Program-made: the position numbers and the translations under genes
The notes under the pieces: generated by a model
The model's input: only the letters and a program-made list of their open reading frames with translations
Told to the model about the DNA's origin: nothing
Databases searched by the model: none
Source of the DNA: Haloferax elongans ATCC BAA-1513
Lineage (GTDB): Archaea; Halobacteriota; Halobacteria; Halobacteriales; Haloferacaceae
DNA length: 64,000 bases
Reading direction: 5' to 3'
Assembly: GCF_000336755.1 (NCBI RefSeq)
Contig: NZ_AOLK01000011.1
Location: 265,440-329,439, forward strand
Shown here: one piece after another, positions 12,081-63,548 of the stretch
Layout: each line of letters starts with the position of its first letter
How positions within the stretch are numbered: position 1 is the first letter of the stretch

Positions 12081-14066
12081 ATGTCAATTACTTCGCCGCA
12101 GGCGCGTGTCTTCTCTGTCGTCGGCGACGACATCCGAGCACGAGTCGAACGCGAACTCTCGTCGTTCGACGTCGAGGCCGTCGACTCGGTCGACGCTGTC
12201 GAGCGACGACTCGCCGAAGATTCGGCGGATTGCGTCGTCATCGACACGGACTCACCAGCAACAGTGACAGCCATCAGCGAGACTGGTGTTCCGGTCGTCG
12301 TACTGGTTTCCCCGGACGCCGACCTCTCGCCGGGGGACGCACTCGATGCCGGTGCAGAAGACGTCGTCCCCGTCGTCGAGTCTAACCTCTTCGACCGATT
12401 GGGTGCCCGCGTCGCGAGCGTCGTGTCGTGGCACGATGGTCGTGACGAGGCGACGGCCAGAATCACCGAAGAGTTGAAAGAACGGGCGATGGACGAAGCG
12501 CCCGTCGGAATCACGATTTCGGACGGTTCGCTCCCCGACCACCCGCTCGTCTACGCCAACGACGCGTTCGAGTCGATGACGGGGTACACTGTCGAAGAGG
12601 CGCTGGGTCGAAACTGCCGATATCTGCAGGGAAACAAGACGAACCAAGAGCGCGTCGCCGAACTTCGCCGCGCAATCGATGCCGAGGAGTCGGCGTCTGT
12701 CGAACTGCTGAATTATCGGCGAGGCGGCTCGACCTTCTGGAATCGCGTCGATATCGCGCCGCTTCCGGGGCCGGATGGCTCTGTGACCCATTACGTCGGT
12801 TTCCAGACGGACATCACAGAGCGCGTCCGCGCCGAGCAGGCCGCAGAGCGGTACGCTGCCCGCGTCGAAGAAGAACGCGCGCGACTCCAGAATCTCGTCG
12901 ACCACATCGAAGGGCTGCTCGAAGATGTCACGAGCGCGCTCGTCCGCGCGGAGACGCGCGCGGAACTCGAAACCACGGTGTGTGAGAAAATCGCCGCGTC
13001 ACCGTCGTTCGAGGGCGCGTGGATTGGCGACGTCGACCTCTCTCCGAAAGAAATCGTGCCGAACGAGTGGGCCGGTGCGGCAACGGCCACACTCTCGGAA
13101 CTTCGAATCGACCGCGACGACGACACCGACCCAACCGCGCTCGCCGCCACGACCGGCGAGGTACAGTCAGGGACGGCTTCGGACGGCAGACTCCACGCCG
13201 ACGTGTCGCTGCCATTTACGAACGTTATCGCCGTCCCGCTCGTCCACCGTGACACGATGTACGGTGTGTTGAGCGTGTACGCGACAGAGTCGGTCGACGA
13301 GTACGTACAGGCTGTCTTCGGAACGCTCGGCAGAGCAGTTGGGGCCGCCATCGACGCGTTCGAGAGCCGACGGACGCTCATGTCCAACGAGGTTCTCGAA
13401 CTCGAACTCGAAATTACGGACTCGACACAGCCGCTCGCCACGCTCGCCACCTCGTGGGGATGTCGGCTCGAATACGAGGGGTCGGTTCCGCACGACGACG
13501 GGACGGTGAGCCTCTTCGTCTCGACGACGCCTCCAATCGCCGGTGGGGATATTGACACCGACGAAACGTCTGAATCCCGTGCTGAGGGTATCGTACGCGT
13601 CTCACAACTCCCGCGAGGAGACGGCGCCGGACTGTTCGAAATCGTTCTCGCGTTCAATTCACTTTTGCACCTCGTCGCCGACGCGAGCGGTCGGATCTCG
13701 GACCTCGAAGTCGATTCCGACGGGACCCATCTGACGGTCGTTGTCCCGGACCGTGCACTCGGTCGGTCGCTTCTCGACGACCTGAAAGCGGTCGCACAGG
13801 GAGTCGAACTCCGAGCAGTCAGGGACCGTGCGGTCCCGCCGCAGACCCAGCGAGAGTTTGCCGCGAGCGTCGGGGCAGAACTCACCGACAGACAGCGAAC
13901 CGCGCTCCAACTGGCGTATCTCGGCGGCTTCTTCGAGTGGCCTCATGGCGTGAAAGGCGACGAACTCGCCGAGGCGATGGGCGTCTCTCGACCGACGTAC
14001 CACCAGCACCTTCGCGCAGCAGAGCGAAAGCTGGTCACTCGATTTTTCGAGAGCGAGGTTCCGTAG
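12081..14066 (+). CDS. Bat-type HTH regulator with REC-like, LOV and GAF domains
   Basis: A 661-residue regulator of the bacterio-opsin activator class. Domains in order: a degenerate receiver-like domain (about 8-115, acidic residue in CVVIDTD near 55), then a PAS domain of the LOV type (about 138-250). The LOV domain has the flavin-adduct signature GRNCRYLQG with Cys179 and the usual NYRRGGSTFWN and HYVGFQTDITER motifs. A coiled linker, a GAF domain (about 290-430), a Bat N-terminal-like beta domain and a C-terminal HTH_10 (LTDRQRTALQLAYLGGFFEW ...) complete it. The family is known to activate transcription. The intact cysteine predicts blue-light sensing through FMN, which is inference. 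It sits between atpB and atpD in the same direction. The ATG at 12081 gives the full receiver-like fold. Confidence 0.88.
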   Translation: MSITSPQARVFSVVGDDIRARVERELSSFDVEAVDSVDAVERRLAEDSADCVVIDTDSPATVTAISETGVPVVVLVSPDADLSPGDALDAGAEDVVPVVESNLFDRLGARVASVVSWHDGRDEATARITEELKERAMDEAPVGITISDGSLPDHPLVYANDAFESMTGYTVEEALGRNCRYLQGNKTNQERVAELRRAIDAEESASVELLNYRRGGSTFWNRVDIAPLPGPDGSVTHYVGFQTDITERVRAEQAAERYAARVEEERARLQNLVDHIEGLLEDVTSALVRAETRAELETTVCEKIAASPSFEGAWIGDVDLSPKEIVPNEWAGAATATLSELRIDRDDDTDPTALAATTGEVQSGTASDGRLHADVSLPFTNVIAVPLVHRDTMYGVLSVYATESVDEYVQAVFGTLGRAVGAAIDAFESRRTLMSNEVLELELEITDSTQPLATLATSWGCRLEYEGSVPHDDGTVSLFVSTTPPIAGGDIDTDETSESRAEGIVRVSQLPRGDGAGLFEIVLAFNSLLHLVADASGRISDLEVDSDGTHLTVVVPDRALGRSLLDDLKAVAQGVELRAVRDRAVPPQTQREFAASVGAELTDRQRTALQLAYLGGFFEWPHGVKGDELAEAMGVSRPTYHQHLRAAERKLVTRFFESEVP

Positions 14067-38110: not shown

Positions 38111-38191
38111 GGCGTCGTTATGATTTAGAAGCGGAGTATCGTTGACGCACGGCGACGAGACGCCTCGCTGGACGAGTTGAAATTAGAGAAG

Positions 38192-38264
38192 CGCCCGAGG
38201 CGGGATTTGAACCCGCGTCACGACCGTGACAGGGTCGTATGATGGGCCACTACACCACCCGGGC
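38192..38264 (-). tRNA. tRNA-Asp (GTC), copy 1
   Basis: Read on the minus strand, GCCCGGGTGGTGTAGTGGCC opens the gene and CCTCGGGCG closes it with a seven-pair acceptor stem (one G-T). The anticodon loop is CTGTCAC with GTC, and the T arm is GCGGGTTCAAATCCCGC. No CCA is encoded. The gene is 73 bases and identical to the next copy. Confidence 0.95.
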
Positions 38265-38293
38265 TTACTGAAGTGAGTTTGCGGTACGGAGAG

Positions 38294-38366
38294 CGCCCGA
38301 GGCGGGATTTGAACCCGCGTCACGACCGTGACAGGGTCGTATGATGGGCCACTACACCACCCGGGC
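38294..38366 (-). tRNA. tRNA-Asp (GTC), copy 2
   Basis: Base for base identical to the neighbouring tRNA-Asp, 29 bases away. It lies upstream in transcription order, so both may be cotranscribed. The spacer between them is not conserved with the outer flanks, which points to an old duplication kept identical by gene conversion, or to a recent duplication limited to the gene. Confidence 0.95.
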
Positions 38367-57700: not shown

Positions 57701-57772
57701 GGGCTCGTAGATCAGTGGCAGATCGCTTCCTTCGCAAGGAAGAGGCCCGGGGTTCAAATCCCCGCGAGTCCA
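57701..57772 (+). tRNA. tRNA-Ala (CGC)
   Basis: GGGCTCG pairs with CGAGTCC (one G-T) and is followed by discriminator A. The anticodon loop is TTCGCAA with CGC, and the T arm is CCGGGGTTCAAATCCCCG. It is 72 bases with no encoded CCA. The gene is complete, and the order changes character right after it, as expected if it is an integration site with the 3' end regenerated by the incoming element. Confidence 0.93.
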
Positions 57773-58925: not shown

Positions 58926-59121
58926 CCGATGAATCTCGACTCGGACCGGCCACCACCGATTCAATAACTAAGATTCCAGTCGCACAGTCTCTCGTAAGCA
59001 ACTATTCGTTAGCTGTCGGTACGTCGGTCGGAGCGTCGTCGGAGCGTCGTCGGGACGGGTTTTCTGGGGGCTTGGTTGCTCCGAGGCCGCCAACAAGTCA
59101 CTTGGTGAGCGTCTTCATAGA
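58926..59121. other. Gene-free junction with two 11-base tandem copies
   Basis: Only a 12-residue frame starts here. TCGGAGCGTCG occurs twice back to back at 59028-59049, followed by a degraded third start (TCGGGACGGG). No function is evident, and it separates the rightward and leftward gene blocks. Confidence 0.4.
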
Positions 59122-59138
59122 CCCACGTTGAACGTGGG
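59122..59138. repeat. CCCACGTT-G-AACGTGGG palindrome, terminator or IS remnant
   Basis: This perfect 8+8 palindrome lies 9 bases beyond the stop of the AT-rich gene on the minus strand. It may end that transcript. From memory, similar CCCACGTT/AACGTGGGAG hairpins occur near the right ends of haloarchaeal IS200/IS605 elements, so it could be what remains of one. I cannot compare sequences here. Confidence 0.4.
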
Positions 59139-59147
59139 AGAGGGAAC

Positions 59148-60107
59148 TTATGAATAGAGCATTTGAAGTAATTCACCAAGGTCTTCTCTCACTCTTTTGA
59201 CGTCTTTGAATCTAGTTGGTCCCTCCTTATGATGGGCCATCCAGCGTCTTTCAGCACTGTTGATTTTTTCCAATCTCGAAATTGACTTCTGATCGATTGG
59301 AGAGTTACTGGTTAGAGTGCCGAGTAAATCGCTGAAGTAGTAGGGATTTCCATTTTCCTTCTCCTTTTGGATAATGTCAATATTTTTCTCAGACTCCAAG
59401 TAAGAGATAATTGACCATTCTATTGCATGAACATATGAACTCAACGCGGGAATGTACATGTCTAAGGTAAAACATTTGTCACCCTCTTTGAGATGAGTGA
59501 TTACCTCCTTACCGTATTTTGAAGAAGACATCTTATCTAATTGATTGTCATCAAACAAAACCGGCAGTTCTTCCGCGTAAGTTTCTAACTCGTAGTATGT
59601 GATGAATTTTTCAAGTAATTTGTAAAGATTTTTTATATTGTGGTTGTTTTGTTCTTTACTGTTCCTTTTTTCAGTTGATACTGGTATATAGGCGGAGATG
59701 TGGCTAGAACTCTGGAGTCGTAGTTCGATTCTATCTGACTCAACCTCGACAACCAAAGAATCCTGGTTAGAATTCAGTTCTTTTCTATGCGGTTCGCATA
59801 TTCGATTTGAGAAAATACCTGATGCCCCTGGAAGAACCCTTTGAATGCTTGTCTCAGGGTCGGTAGCAAGCCATCTGTTGATTGTTTCAGATAGAATTTG
59901 AATCTGATTAATGTCTTTGAAAGCCAGACAGAGTTTGCGGTCGGATATTATCTTCCATCCGTCTGGATTTGTTAGTTTATCAACTAGTGAATGTATCTCA
60001 AGATGTACTTGATCATCCAACGTATGAATCTCCACTGTTGACCGGTCAATTCTAAATTTTTTATCCTCAAAATATGTCTCTTCAGAAAATATCCGGCTTA
60101 ACTTCAT
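59148..60107 (-). CDS. AT-rich solitary gene with HEPN-like R-x4-H motif
   Basis: A 319-residue protein whose DNA is far poorer in G+C than its surroundings (three sampled 60-base lines count 14, 22 and 28 GC). Residues about 1-140 look beta-rich, followed by a helical linker and a C-terminal helical region. That region contains RRWMAHH at 287-293, which fits R-x4-H and resembles the active-site motif of HEPN ribonucleases, preceded by a long helix (YVHAIEWSIISYLESEK). HEPN proteins act in toxin-antitoxin, abortive-infection and other defence systems. The assignment is pattern-based and weak. A GTATAC element on the minus strand 22-27 bases ahead predicts a leaderless transcript. The solitary position and composition point to recent transfer as cargo. 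Confidence 0.6.
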   Translation of the reverse strand: MKLSRIFSEETYFEDKKFRIDRSTVEIHTLDDQVHLEIHSLVDKLTNPDGWKIISDRKLCLAFKDINQIQILSETINRWLATDPETSIQRVLPGASGIFSNRICEPHRKELNSNQDSLVVEVESDRIELRLQSSSHISAYIPVSTEKRNSKEQNNHNIKNLYKLLEKFITYYELETYAEELPVLFDDNQLDKMSSSKYGKEVITHLKEGDKCFTLDMYIPALSSYVHAIEWSIISYLESEKNIDIIQKEKENGNPYYFSDLLGTLTSNSPIDQKSISRLEKINSAERRWMAHHKEGPTRFKDVKRVREDLGELLQMLYS

Positions 60108-60205
60108 AAGTGTGTTACTCCAGGTTGAGTATACGATATGTTTGTTGGTAAATATTCTTAGAAGAGACTGTGAATGTAAACTAATCTGATGTCTGCCTCA
60201 ACGCC

Positions 60206-60397
60206 TCAATCCTCGTCTACGACCTCACCCCCATCCGGGATATACACATCCTCCAATCGCCCAATCCGCGACCGAACCGCGTCGATATCGTCGTGGAGGG
60301 TAGCCTTCACGTCTCGAACATACATCCCCAACCCGACCAGCATGAGCGCCACGACCGGGTCGGTCGTCTGCAACAGCAGGTCGGTTAGTTCACTCAT
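60206..60397 (-). CDS. Small membrane protein with coiled-coil tail, 63 residues
   Basis: MSELTDLLLQTTDPVVALML starts a single membrane helix (about 12-30), followed by a charged helix (DDIDAVRSRIGRLEDVYIP). The layout resembles small holin-like or virion membrane proteins, but no family is identified. The ATG at 60397 overlaps the preceding gene by eight bases, and a GTG nine bases upstream is an alternative. It is the last gene of the leftward cassette. Confidence 0.55.
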   Translation of the reverse strand: MSELTDLLLQTTDPVVALMLVGLGMYVRDVKATLHDDIDAVRSRIGRLEDVYIPDGGEVVDED

Positions 60398-60833
60398 CGT
60401 CACCACCGACGACCGTCAACCCGAGTTGCACCAACGGAGCGACGAGATAGAGAACGACCAGTGACCCAACGACGACGAGCAGCAGTTTCGTCTTCGTCTC
60501 CGCAGCGCCGTGCGTCTCGCCCTCTCGTTCGACTACGACATCAACGACACTCCCCTCGGAACCCCAGAGGCTCGGGCCGAAGACATCGACTGAATCCTCA
60601 CGCCCGTTCAGGGTGCCGTCGTAATCCATCATCGTGTCGTAGACCGTCCGGACGAACTCACCCCGGAGGTAGCGATTGTGGTAGGTGTCTGTCTCGGGGT
60701 CGTTCGTCTCGCCCGTCCGTCCCATATCGGCGAAGCCGCCGCCGGGTTCGTCATCGAACTGGCGAGCGATGGATTCGTCTACTGACCCGGCAAGGTGGTC
60801 GAGGCCGCCGGTGACGGTGTCGATGACGTTCAA
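60390..60833 (-). CDS. Element membrane protein with C-terminal anchor, TTG start
   Basis: A 147-residue protein. About 115 acidic, mostly soluble residues are followed by a hydrophobic segment (KLLLVVVGSLVVLYLVAPLV) near the C-terminus. No ATG exists near the expected start. The frame opens with TTG whose last two bases belong to the TGA stop of the upstream gene (TTGA), a coupled arrangement that makes the rare start credible. Function unknown, possibly a virion or envelope component. Confidence 0.55.
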   Translation of the reverse strand: MNVIDTVTGGLDHLAGSVDESIARQFDDEPGGGFADMGRTGETNDPETDTYHNRYLRGEFVRTVYDTMMDYDGTLNGREDSVDVFGPSLWGSEGSVVDVVVEREGETHGAAETKTKLLLVVVGSLVVLYLVAPLVQLGLTVVGGDDE

Positions 60834-61402
60834 CGCGAGTCACCACCACCGAGGATACCGAGCAGGGCGAGAACGGAGGCCATGACGATGGCCGCAACCC
60901 CAAGGGTTCCGGCGTTGAAATCGCCCTCCGAACCGGGTTGTATCTCTCCCATTCCGGCTATCTCCTCTCGAATGTCGCGGATGGATTCACGGACGGTTCC
61001 GAGTTCGTCCACCGAAGGCGATGGGTCGCTGTCACCGACCAAATTCGAGACGTTGTCTCGAATCTCGTCGAGAGTTCGGTCCGTTCGGTCAAGGTCAACC
61101 GAGGCGGTCCCGTCGGGATTGATTATCACCTCGTCGCCGTCGGTGTTCTCGTTTGGGTCGGGACTGACGATGTCGTTGGTCGGCGTCCCCGCGCCCGGCA
61201 TCCCTGATTCGGAGTTGTTCAGTTCGTCCTCCGGGATGAGGTCGGAGTAGCCGCCGGTACTCGGCGAATCATCGTCGTCGTCATCGTCGTCATCACCCCC
61301 GCCGCCAATCTGGTTGGCGAGTCGCTGGCCGGGAGTGAGTTCTTCGCGTGGGTCGTACGTCTCGCCAGCACTCGGCGAGTCATCTGCTGTGATGTAGACC
61401 AT
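60830..61402 (-). CDS. Acidic low-complexity protein with C-terminal membrane anchor
   Basis: A 190-residue protein. The middle has an uninterrupted run of nine Asp residues after four Gly, then Pro/Thr/Asn/Asp-rich linker and a helical stretch (LGTVRESIRDIREEIAGMGE). It ends in a single membrane helix (VAAIVMASVLALLGILGGG). Such flexible extracellular stalk plus tail anchor designs are common in haloarchaeal virus membrane proteins. Its position in the cassette, two bases after the 78-residue gene, supports a structural role. Confidence 0.6.
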   Translation of the reverse strand: MVYITADDSPSAGETYDPREELTPGQRLANQIGGGGDDDDDDDDDSPSTGGYSDLIPEDELNNSESGMPGAGTPTNDIVSPDPNENTDGDEVIINPDGTASVDLDRTDRTLDEIRDNVSNLVGDSDPSPSVDELGTVRESIRDIREEIAGMGEIQPGSEGDFNAGTLGVAAIVMASVLALLGILGGGDSR

Positions 61403-61404
61403 GA

Positions 61405-61641
61405 TTAGGCACCTCCGCTCGTGGACGCAATTTCCTCTTCTAGCAGCTCTTGGTATCTCGTTCGGACGGACTCGGCTTCCGCGTCAGAGAGTTCGACGGG
61501 ATAGGTGGTTGCGCCGACAACCTCAGTTATCGACTGCTTTGCGAGTTCGTCGGCTCGGCTCTGCGAGACATCGCTCCCGCTCGGCGCAATCGGATGCCAC
61601 GAAAGCTCGACGCCCTCGACGTACCGGACGTAGAGGGTCAT
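61405..61641 (-). CDS. Small soluble protein of the element, 78 residues
   Basis: MTLYVRYVEGVELSWHPIAP starts a short beta hairpin region, and the rest is helical and acidic (SRADELAKQSITEVVGATTY, EAESVRTRYQELLEEEIAS). No family is recognised. It overlaps the upstream gene by four bases and so belongs to the same translation unit. Confidence 0.55.
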   Translation of the reverse strand: MTLYVRYVEGVELSWHPIAPSGSDVSQSRADELAKQSITEVVGATTYPVELSDAEAESVRTRYQELLEEEIASTSGGA

Positions 61642-61949
61642 AGCCTCCACCCCCGGATGAGCATGATTCCCGGATTCGACCCCTCCGTGAGCTTGTCGCC
61701 CTCGTACAGCCACGACCCTTCGAGTTCGGGGACTGAATCGAGGTTACGCGACGACGTCGCCGAGACTGATGTCCCGTTGATGGTCATGTTCGTCTCGTAG
61801 TTCGTCGTCTGGGCGAACAGACAGGAGGTGATGTACCACTTCTCGCCGGTCGGAACCGTGACCGACTCGCCTGCGGCGGTGTCAATCTGTAGCCGTTCGC
61901 CGTCGGTGTAGATTGCACCACCCGAGGACTGTGGGCTCACGACCGTCAT
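61638..61949 (-). CDS. Beta-rich small protein of the element, 103 residues
   Basis: Alternating short hydrophobic strands with Ser/Thr/Gly turns (GAIYTDGERLQIDTAAGESV, TVPTGEKWYITSCLFAQ) and almost no helix suggest a beta sandwich. No signal or membrane helix is seen. The ATG at 61949 overlaps the upstream stop (ATGA), and a GTG twelve bases earlier is possible. A minor capsid or spike-like component is conceivable. Confidence 0.55.
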   Translation of the reverse strand: MTVVSPQSSGGAIYTDGERLQIDTAAGESVTVPTGEKWYITSCLFAQTTNYETNMTINGTSVSATSSRNLDSVPELEGSWLYEGDKLTEGSNPGIMLIRGWRL

Positions 61950-62290
61950 TCGCCAGCCCACCCCCCGGCGATTGGACTCGCGGTACCACTCGGGTCACGG
62001 AACGTCACGATGTCCATCTCCCACTTGTCGAACGCACCGACGTTGCCCGCAAGTGGGACGGTGAACGTGTCACCCCCAGTGGTCGTGACCTCCATGTCGA
62101 TGTTCCCGGACTTCGTCAAGACGAGTTCCTGAATCGTCGCTGCCGGATTCAGCGTGTAGGGGTAGGCGGTCCCGTCGAAGTCGAAGCCATCCCCGTGGGC
62201 GTAGTTGTCCGTCTCGACGGTCCCTTGCGTACTCGTTGCGAGGATACCGCCCGACCCACGGACTTCCTGACTGAATTGCTCAACGCCCAT
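61946..62290 (-). CDS. Beta-rich small protein of the element, 114 residues
   Basis: The sequence has repeated strand-turn pattern (GILATSTQGTVETDNYAHGD, KSGNIDMEVTTTGGDTFTVP) resembling the neighbouring 103-residue protein in composition and probable fold. It begins one base into the stop of the upstream gene. Likely a soluble structural protein. Confidence 0.55.
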   Translation of the reverse strand: MGVEQFSQEVRGSGGILATSTQGTVETDNYAHGDGFDFDGTAYPYTLNPAATIQELVLTKSGNIDMEVTTTGGDTFTVPLAGNVGAFDKWEMDIVTFRDPSGTASPIAGGWAGE

Positions 62291-62715
62291 CAGAACACCC
62301 TCCGTAATCGGCTGAGAAAGGATTCGACCGGACGCGCCATACCGCCCGCGCGGTCGATAACCATGTCTACCGCGTAGTCGTAGGTGTTCGACCCATCGAC
62401 GTTGCGCACCTCGACCCCGAGGACTTCGCCCTCTCGAACGGCTTCGCTCGTCGGGAAAATCCAGTAGTCGTTGTCGCCGTCGACGTAGTCTTTCCCGCGA
62501 AGCTCGACCAAGGGAACTCGCTCGCGGTATCCCGGCTCGCCGCGTTCGAGGAACGGTACGACACGAAGGTCAAGGCGCGGGCCTTGGTAGATTCGCACCG
62601 CAACCTCCTCGACCGTCGCATCCTGCTGTGCGGTGTACGTCTCGGTTTCAACGTCGTCGGGGCCGACGTTCCCGGCGAAGCGGAGGCTACTCTTGCGGTC
62701 TGAATTGGAAGACAT
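62290..62715 (-). CDS. Beta-rich protein of the element, 141 residues
   Basis: Strong strand pattern throughout (VETETYTAQQDATVEEVAVR, VPLVELRGKDYVDGDNDYW, LGVEVRNVDGSNTYDYAVDM) with a basic C-terminal helix (ESFLSRLRRVF). This is compatible with a single jelly-roll virion protein having a membrane- or nucleic-acid-facing tail. No homologue is recognised by eye. Confidence 0.55.
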   Translation of the reverse strand: MSSNSDRKSSLRFAGNVGPDDVETETYTAQQDATVEEVAVRIYQGPRLDLRVVPFLERGEPGYRERVPLVELRGKDYVDGDNDYWIFPTSEAVREGEVLGVEVRNVDGSNTYDYAVDMVIDRAGGMARPVESFLSRLRRVF

Positions 62716-62733
62716 GAAAGGGAGCCTCCGGGG

Positions 62734-63243
62734 TTAGTTGAGCTTCCCGTAGAAGATACGGGCGCTGGATGCACTCGGGTCAACCTCTACGCCGTCGGAT
62801 TCGGGGTCCGCGATGACGCGAAGCTGAATCCGCTGGTCCTCACGCGCGATGGGCGCGAGGGCGGGCATGATGGGTCGCTCGGTTCGCGGGTCGCTCGCGG
62901 CGTCGGCGAGAGTTTCGAGGTCGCCAACGTTGTAGCGGTGATGGACATCGCGCCCTTCGGAGTCGGTGATGACCGCGACGAGGTCGCCCTTGATGGCGTC
63001 GCCTGCGCTGCCAGCACCGTTGCCAGTCGCTTTCAGTTGAGCGTAGATGTGCGAGGCGTTGCCCGCCTGCTTGTTCTGGTGGCCGAAGCCCCAGAACAGG
63101 TACTTGTCGGCGGGGCAGGTCTGCTCGTAGACGACGATTTCGTTTCCTGCTCGGAGCGTCGTCTGTTCGAGCATTGACCCCTTGACCGGCTTCGAGTTGC
63201 CGACGTTGGCGAGGTTCGTGTTGTAGACGAGTGGCGTCGCCAT
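62734..63243 (-). CDS. Candidate major structural protein of the element, 169 residues
   Basis: The largest beta-rich protein of the cassette: MATPLVYNTNLANVGNSKPV, strands around EIVVYEQTCPADKYLFWGFG and GDLVAVITDSEGRDVHHRYN, and a final RIQLRVIADPESDGVEVD segment. Size, lack of membrane helices, position second in the operon and strong beta content fit a single-beta-barrel capsid protein of tailless haloarchaeal viruses. This is an inference from shape. ATG 63243 is chosen over a GTG two codons earlier because it follows the upstream stop by two bases. Confidence 0.5.
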   Translation of the reverse strand: MATPLVYNTNLANVGNSKPVKGSMLEQTTLRAGNEIVVYEQTCPADKYLFWGFGHQNKQAGNASHIYAQLKATGNGAGSAGDAIKGDLVAVITDSEGRDVHHRYNVGDLETLADAASDPRTERPIMPALAPIAREDQRIQLRVIADPESDGVEVDPSASSARIFYGKLN

Positions 63244-63245
63244 GT

Positions 63246-63446
63246 TCACTCACCTGCCACCGGGATGCCAGTGCCCTGTTCGACACCAGCGGTCTCTTTC
63301 GCCTTGTTGTACAGCCACGTCCCCGCGCCCATGACCGCGAGGAAGAGCATCACCCCGACCGTTGCGAGGCCGAGGTTCTGCGCCGATTCTCCGGGTTGGT
63401 CCGTATCTACCTCTGTATCGAGGAACGGAACTCCTACTTTTGGCAT
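63246..63446 (-). CDS. Single-span membrane protein, first gene of leftward cassette
   Basis: A 66-residue protein with a polar start (MPKVGVPFLDTEVDTDQPGE), one membrane helix (LATVGVMLFLAVMGAGTWLY) and a short hydrophilic end. It starts about 35-45 bases after a minus-strand TATA-like GCATATTC. It is the promoter-proximal gene, followed after two bases by the candidate capsid protein. Confidence 0.6.
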   Translation of the reverse strand: MPKVGVPFLDTEVDTDQPGESAQNLGLATVGVMLFLAVMGAGTWLYNKAKETAGVEQGTGIPVAGE

Positions 63447-63481
63447 TGCATCCGACCCGATGTGCGATTGTTCAAAAGCCG

Positions 63482-63548
63482 AATATGCAGTGTAGAACAC
63501 TCAACGCTCAATAATTGAGTGTCGAGACTGGTAGATAGTTCATATACC
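63482..63548. promoter_or_regulatory. Divergent promoter with nested inverted repeats
   Basis: ACACTCAA (63497-63504) and TTGAGTGT (63515-63522) form an 8+8 inverted repeat. Nested inside is CTCAAT-A-ATTGAG (63507-63519). A minus-strand TATA-like element lies at 63482-63489, and a plus-strand CATATACC at about 63541-63548, 21-28 bases before the rightward ATG. The repeats lie between both promoters, the layout of a phage-type switch operator. Confidence 0.55.

Follow-up and report, generated by a model that had tools for sequence, protein, structure and literature searches.

The window, that is, the whole stretch of 64,000 nucleotides of Haloferax elongans DNA that was analysed, carries near its right end a tRNA-Ala gene with an integrated element, and within this element a single AT-rich gene whose product has a C-terminal HEPN domain (Table 1). 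The 3′ end of the tRNA gene, CCCCGCGAGTCCA, recurs just past a tyrosine integrase gene, outside the window; attR is located about 12.14 kb downstream of attL and the element has a size of about 12.1 kb. The earlier note, made from the sequence alone, had placed an element at this tRNA gene, and the integrase together with the repeats of the tRNA 3′ end about 12.1 kb away confirm this. Besides the integrase, the element encodes a P-loop ATPase similar to packaging enzymes, and it has a block of small genes putatively for virion proteins. Those of the proteins that were compared with phage records and viral contigs had no match there, and for the putative capsid proteins a match was also lacking among solved structures. 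Because the putative capsid proteins match nothing, the element is called a provirus by its gene content and the virus family is left unnamed; possibly, the group represents an undescribed virus family. Integration at tRNA-Ala is also described for a 39-kb virus/plasmid element with an integrase in the haloarchaeon 'Hmc. mukohataei' (PMC3622292).

Table 1. Features of the tRNA-Ala provirus and its cargo gene, with positions in the window.
Feature	Position	Strand	Basis or remark
tRNA-Ala(CGC), integration target	57701..57772	plus	3′ end (57760-57772) is the attL core CCCCGCGAGTCCA
Conserved provirus gene left of the slot, 221 aa	58260..58925	plus	Also in sister L069, which has no HEPN gene
Hairpin, perfect, 8-bp arms, just 3′ of the cargo gene	59122..59138		Terminator-like or acquisition relic
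Variable cargo segment	59109..60189		Ends of homology with L069 and L070, from blastn and alignment of the junctions
HEPN-family cargo gene, 319 aa	59148..60107	minus	ORF list and haloarchaeal relatives; start codon 60105-60107
C-terminal HEPN domain, aa 187-319	59151..59549	minus	AlphaFold2 models and structural matches
R287-RWMA-H292-H293, Rx4-6H RNase motif	59229..59249	minus	R287, W289, H292 and H293 invariant
N-terminal domain, aa 1-186, beta-rich, subfamily N1, putative sensor	59550..60107	minus	Weakly common to L004, L010 and L056 only
Conserved provirus gene right of the slot, 66 aa	60206..60406	minus	Beside the slot in L069 and L070; adjoins the putative virion block
Putative virion genes	60390..63500	minus	Include conserved 171-aa and 141-aa proteins and an 84-aa membrane protein

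At the right end there are two copies of CCCCGCGAGTCCA about 83 bp apart, an inner one at position 12759 and an outer one at 12842 of locus L015. In a sister genome (L071; G076, contig 11) a full provirus at tRNA-Ala is followed in tandem by a partial element with its own cargo gene. Since this second element begins directly after the outer att copy, the outer copy is likely attR, and the repeat at 12759 was set aside as a candidate. Every provirus of the group (L015, L069, L070, L071, L072) has two such copies, about 81-83 bp apart, at its right end, and the conservation of the inner one suggests a regulatory or an alternative crossover site.

The GC content of the cargo gene is 0.379, compared to a mean of 0.624 in the other 960-bp stretches of the whole window. 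These have a standard deviation of only 0.022 and a minimum of 0.557, which puts the cargo gene about 11 standard deviations below the mean. The strong drop against both sides that had been noted earlier is thus real. Codon usage agrees with it: the GC3 of 0.39 is below that of core genes of the provirus (0.63-0.81) and of two host genes (0.80-0.85). The gene stands alone, and its AT-rich leader with a GGAG upstream of the ATG makes a promoter of its own plausible, as far as sequence features can tell. The palindrome reported at the end of the gene was also found; it is the hairpin CCCACGTTGAACGTGGG, about 10 nt past the stop codon, and folds only modestly better than shuffled sequences (z −2). 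It occurs once in the genome, and a search of 13 further genomes of the same genus gave no other copy. For this reason, the idea that it is the end of a repeated transposable element of the IS200/IS605 or PATE type was dropped.

Sister proviruses were found via the provirus ATPase, which has good matches in five other genomes of the genus; in four of the five the provirus is located at the same tRNA-Ala. In the closest sisters, L069 and L070, the ATPase is 92% identical. Homology to both ends at position 59108 of the window and picks up again at 60190. Between these points L069 carries an AT-rich gene for 150 aa, with a hydrophobic segment in the N-terminal part of the product; in L070 the corresponding stretch measures about 370 bp and contains no convincing gene. 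In the first element of L071 the gap between the flanking genes holds no gene, the second, partial element carries a 235-aa AT-rich gene in the slot, and L072 has a 135-aa AT-rich gene there. Altogether, the six proviruses or partial copies have four different slot genes, one remnant and one empty slot. Because the sisters keep both flanks but swap or lack the content, the segment in between is an exchangeable cargo, and the suspicion that the gene was acquired is borne out by two close sisters that share the flanks and have other content between them.

This comparison also bears on the possibility that the HEPN protein regulates its own provirus, cleaving provirus or host RNA and thereby controlling lysogeny or replication. 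The gene does adjoin the putative structural genes on the same strand, but the sisters manage without it and have unrelated genes in the slot, and relatives of the gene are found on plasmids and in the core chromosome without this provirus; a regulatory role therefore appears quite unlikely. The arrangement recalls the antiviral hotspots of P2-like phages and P4-like satellites, in which a fixed site between conserved viral genes likewise holds varying, foreign-looking genes (PMC9122126). It differs from these in that the provirus is small and haloarchaeal, the putative virion genes are unrelated and no function is assigned to the other cargo genes. The slot of this provirus family is a defined place to seek further archaeal antiviral genes.

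The C-terminal half of the protein almost certainly has the HEPN fold, as judged from structural models. In the first AlphaFold2 model the pLDDT is about 75-93 for the greater part of residues 181-280, dips around the motif loop and reaches 86-88 at the end. A second model agrees with it on the HEPN domain; over most of aa 187-319 the models have values of about 80-93. With both models VIA-align 2 placed 2hsb first (Z 12.9 and 13.9), followed by other HEPN structures, MntA-HepT complexes, Csm6 and RnlA. The top 25 entries or so are HEPN or HEPN-like, mostly with 110-120 residues aligned. Helical bundles easily reach high scores, but unrelated structures are well below these entries (Z about 4-7). 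Foldseek gave weak E-values (best 0.02) and a probability of 1.00 for the top HEPN entries.

The sequence RRWMAHH in the helical C terminus, which had led to the HEPN reading in the first place, begins at residue 287. In the model E230 lies within helix 218-241, and R287 and H292 are located where helix 273-292 ends. This is the arrangement of active HEPN RNases, in which the motif is at the end of helix 3 and a conserved acidic residue is in helix 2 (PMC3710099). R287, H292 and H293 are invariant in all 15 aligned members of the family, with the consensus [EQ]R-x-W-x-[AG]HH-[KR]-x-G, and in an alignment of 12 members G199, D210, A221, Y225, E230, W231, D244, W289 and G296 are invariant as well. 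Fold and invariant R-x4-HH together uphold the HEPN reading; a motif that varies among homologues, which would have spoken against it, was not observed. From sequence and model, the domain is predicted to be a metal-independent RNase that uses R287 and H292/H293 and that probably works as a homodimer. A HEPN domain may also lack RNase activity and bind nucleotides or protein partners instead, as is the case for some nucleotidyltransferase-linked HEPN domains. Activity is indeed unprovable from sequence, and the position after R287, at which HEPN RNases typically, if not obligatorily, have a polar residue, is R or H in most members but V or I in three (L013, L014, L029). In HEPN domains that are fused to nucleotidyltransferases and bind the substrate, on the other hand, the motif is partly or entirely lost (PMC3710099). 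Here, the arginine, both histidines and the acidic residue of helix 2 are invariant among highly divergent members, so that a non-catalytic domain has little probability. None of the HEPN models of Pfam, NCBIfam and PADLOC matches the family. Weak matches (E about 0.001 at best) to phrog_2039, a PHROG family without assigned function, were obtained with four of 12 members, and members of phrog_2039 were not found in a genome.

The N-terminal half is a different matter. The N termini of the family are of four unrelated types and are not conserved across members. Type N1 comprises the window protein and three others (L004, L010, L056), which are 27-31% identical to it over the full length and only weakly similar in the N-terminal half. 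N2 is found in eight members, N3 is a DUF2321 zinc ribbon (E 2.6e-13) present in two members and one interrupted gene, and N4, with 290 aa, is found in L006 and L053. In a tree of the HEPN domains the N2 members group together and so do the N3 members, with most forks weakly supported. The models of the N-terminal half of the window protein are poor, with a pLDDT of about 40 in the first and of 50-70 in parts of the second. Whirly (Z 5.0) and a cupin-like protein (Z 5.9) came up as fold candidates and are not claimed, since the matches are scattered and the Z values low. The suggestion of a new two-domain effector hence stands in that the HEPN part has no family model and the N-terminal half is swappable. 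That the N-terminal module is a sensor is a guess; the exchange of N termini in front of a conserved effector suggests an RNase that responds to different triggers. At one further locus (L054 and L055; G636, contig 5, 103331-104807) a DUF2321-HEPN gene is split by an insert of about 1 kb.

Among 391 genomes sampled from the class, 12 have the C-terminal domain; more relatives came from family-wide searches, and two were found on haloarchaeal plasmids. All clear members are haloarchaeal, and searches of phage records and of viral contigs gave no relative. Beyond the class there are only weak profile matches; two of these (L035, L052) are to HepT-like genes that have an MNT-like gene beside them. 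A short ORF elsewhere in the phylum (L030, 1492-1662) has QKT and LRRFGNHHKTG features as in the HEPN family and is perhaps a remnant of it outside the haloarchaea. In one contig (L057 and L058; G659, contig 4) the end of the HEPN domain has two matches of equal score, about 104 kb apart and each within a 100-aa open frame with one TAG.

Most relatives are single AT-rich orphan genes (GC 0.42-0.50), many of them amid clearly GC-richer DNA, and two are within 550 bp of a tRNA gene (L040, tRNA-Arg; L046, tRNA-Thr). Several stand alone in the core genome with no defence gene seen nearby. Near others PADLOC recognized Dsr1 (L044 and L001; E 2e-24 and 1.9e-36), DndH/SspH (L048; 3.9e-81), PifA (L039; 1.3e-124) and IetA (L042; 7.7e-36); the flanking proteins had been picked by eye and size, and these matches are supporting and not decisive. 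At the locus on the Halapricum plasmid an annotated HEPN protein, an HNH endonuclease and a death-on-curing toxin are near the relative. A role in defence or superinfection exclusion, as proposed in the earlier note, is consistent with these neighbourhoods.

Among HEPN genes, those of HEPN-MNT toxin-antitoxin pairs form a major class, and HepT toxins are among the closest solved structures. Could the HEPN protein be an addiction toxin whose antitoxin is encoded by a neighbouring provirus gene, so that the pair stabilises the provirus? The product of the neighbouring 221-aa gene has a weak match to an antitoxin family (E 0.048), but this gene is kept in sister L069, which is without the HEPN gene, and as cognate antitoxin it was dropped for this reason. 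No recurring partner gene was seen across the relatives. An MNT-like signature was absent beside the cargo gene and its relatives in a pattern search that also missed the MNT-like gene of L035; the only good match in the locus of a relative (L043) is about 4.7 kb from the HEPN gene. The lack of a recurring partner and the persistence of the 221-aa neighbour make the toxin-antitoxin reading less likely, and we consider it improbable. With HepT toxins the protein shares the fold and R-x4-H, and there are weak profile matches to HepT-like genes of other archaea. Unlike them, the family bears an extra N-terminal module of 100-290 aa, and no adjoining MNT antitoxin gene was seen in the same pattern search. 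A long N-terminal part followed by a C-terminal HEPN domain is also seen in RnlA (RNase LS), which is among the structural matches (Z about 8). RnlA has a TBP-like or viroplasmin/RNase H N-terminal domain and RnlB as partner. The window protein matches RnlA with a sensible rmsd over the HEPN part only, an RnlB gene was not recognized and there is no match to the family model.

The closest experimentally studied analogue is Tha from Staphylococcus prophages, a protein of 301 aa with an N terminus without recognised domain and a C-terminal HEPN domain with R265NSIMH270; it is activated by tail proteins, and the exchange H270A abolishes protection (PMC11087260). By analogy, the window protein may work alike. 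Both are encoded by single prophage genes for about 300 aa, both have an unrecognised N-terminal part with low AlphaFold confidence and a C-terminal R-x4-H HEPN domain, and the HEPN regions resemble the same HepT and Csm6 structures. The differences are an archaeal host and a provirus without recognised tail genes. Membership in Tha was rejected, since BLASTP and profile comparison gave no similarity to Tha-1 and Tha is phrog_13276, a family that the window protein does not match. In a search for an antisense inhibitor gene like ith, no plus-strand ORF of at least 60 aa was found within the cargo gene.

We favour, with some reserve, a single-protein abortive-infection RNase borne by the provirus, with an N-terminal sensor and a HEPN effector, that works like Tha. 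The N-terminal module would keep the RNase inactive and would sense either the virus that enters or what this virus does to the cell. Upon infection of the lysogen by a competing virus, the HEPN domain would cleave RNA, growth would stop and the infection would be aborted, by which provirus and sister cells would be protected. We infer the antiviral role, as well as sensing, from the features described above. Provirus-borne HEPN defence is known from bacteria; a literature search found none described for archaeal viruses. It is tempting, if still tentative, to speculate that the relatives form a haloarchaeal family, not yet described, of mobile single-protein immune RNases, with one conserved HEPN effector and at least four interchangeable sensor modules, carried as AT-rich orphans on chromosomes, on plasmids and in a dedicated slot of a tRNA-Ala provirus family that exchanges such cargo. 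What goes beyond the first reading of the sequence is that the motif is invariant throughout a haloarchaeal family for which Pfam, NCBIfam and PADLOC have no model, together with the swapped N termini and the direct demonstration of the cargo slot.

The packaging-like ATPase of the provirus group is located at L015 7546-8187. A second AT-rich island of the same provirus lies beside the integrase (L015 8880-11470), about 1.9-4.6 kb beyond the end of the window. It encodes two putative membrane proteins (198 and 240 aa) with a GC3 of 0.40-0.41, matching that of the cargo gene, and its content varies among the sisters; in L070 a HATPase-domain protein is encoded there beside a 110-aa protein. Elsewhere in the window, two tRNA-Asp(GTC) genes are located 28 bp apart on the minus strand (38191-38366).
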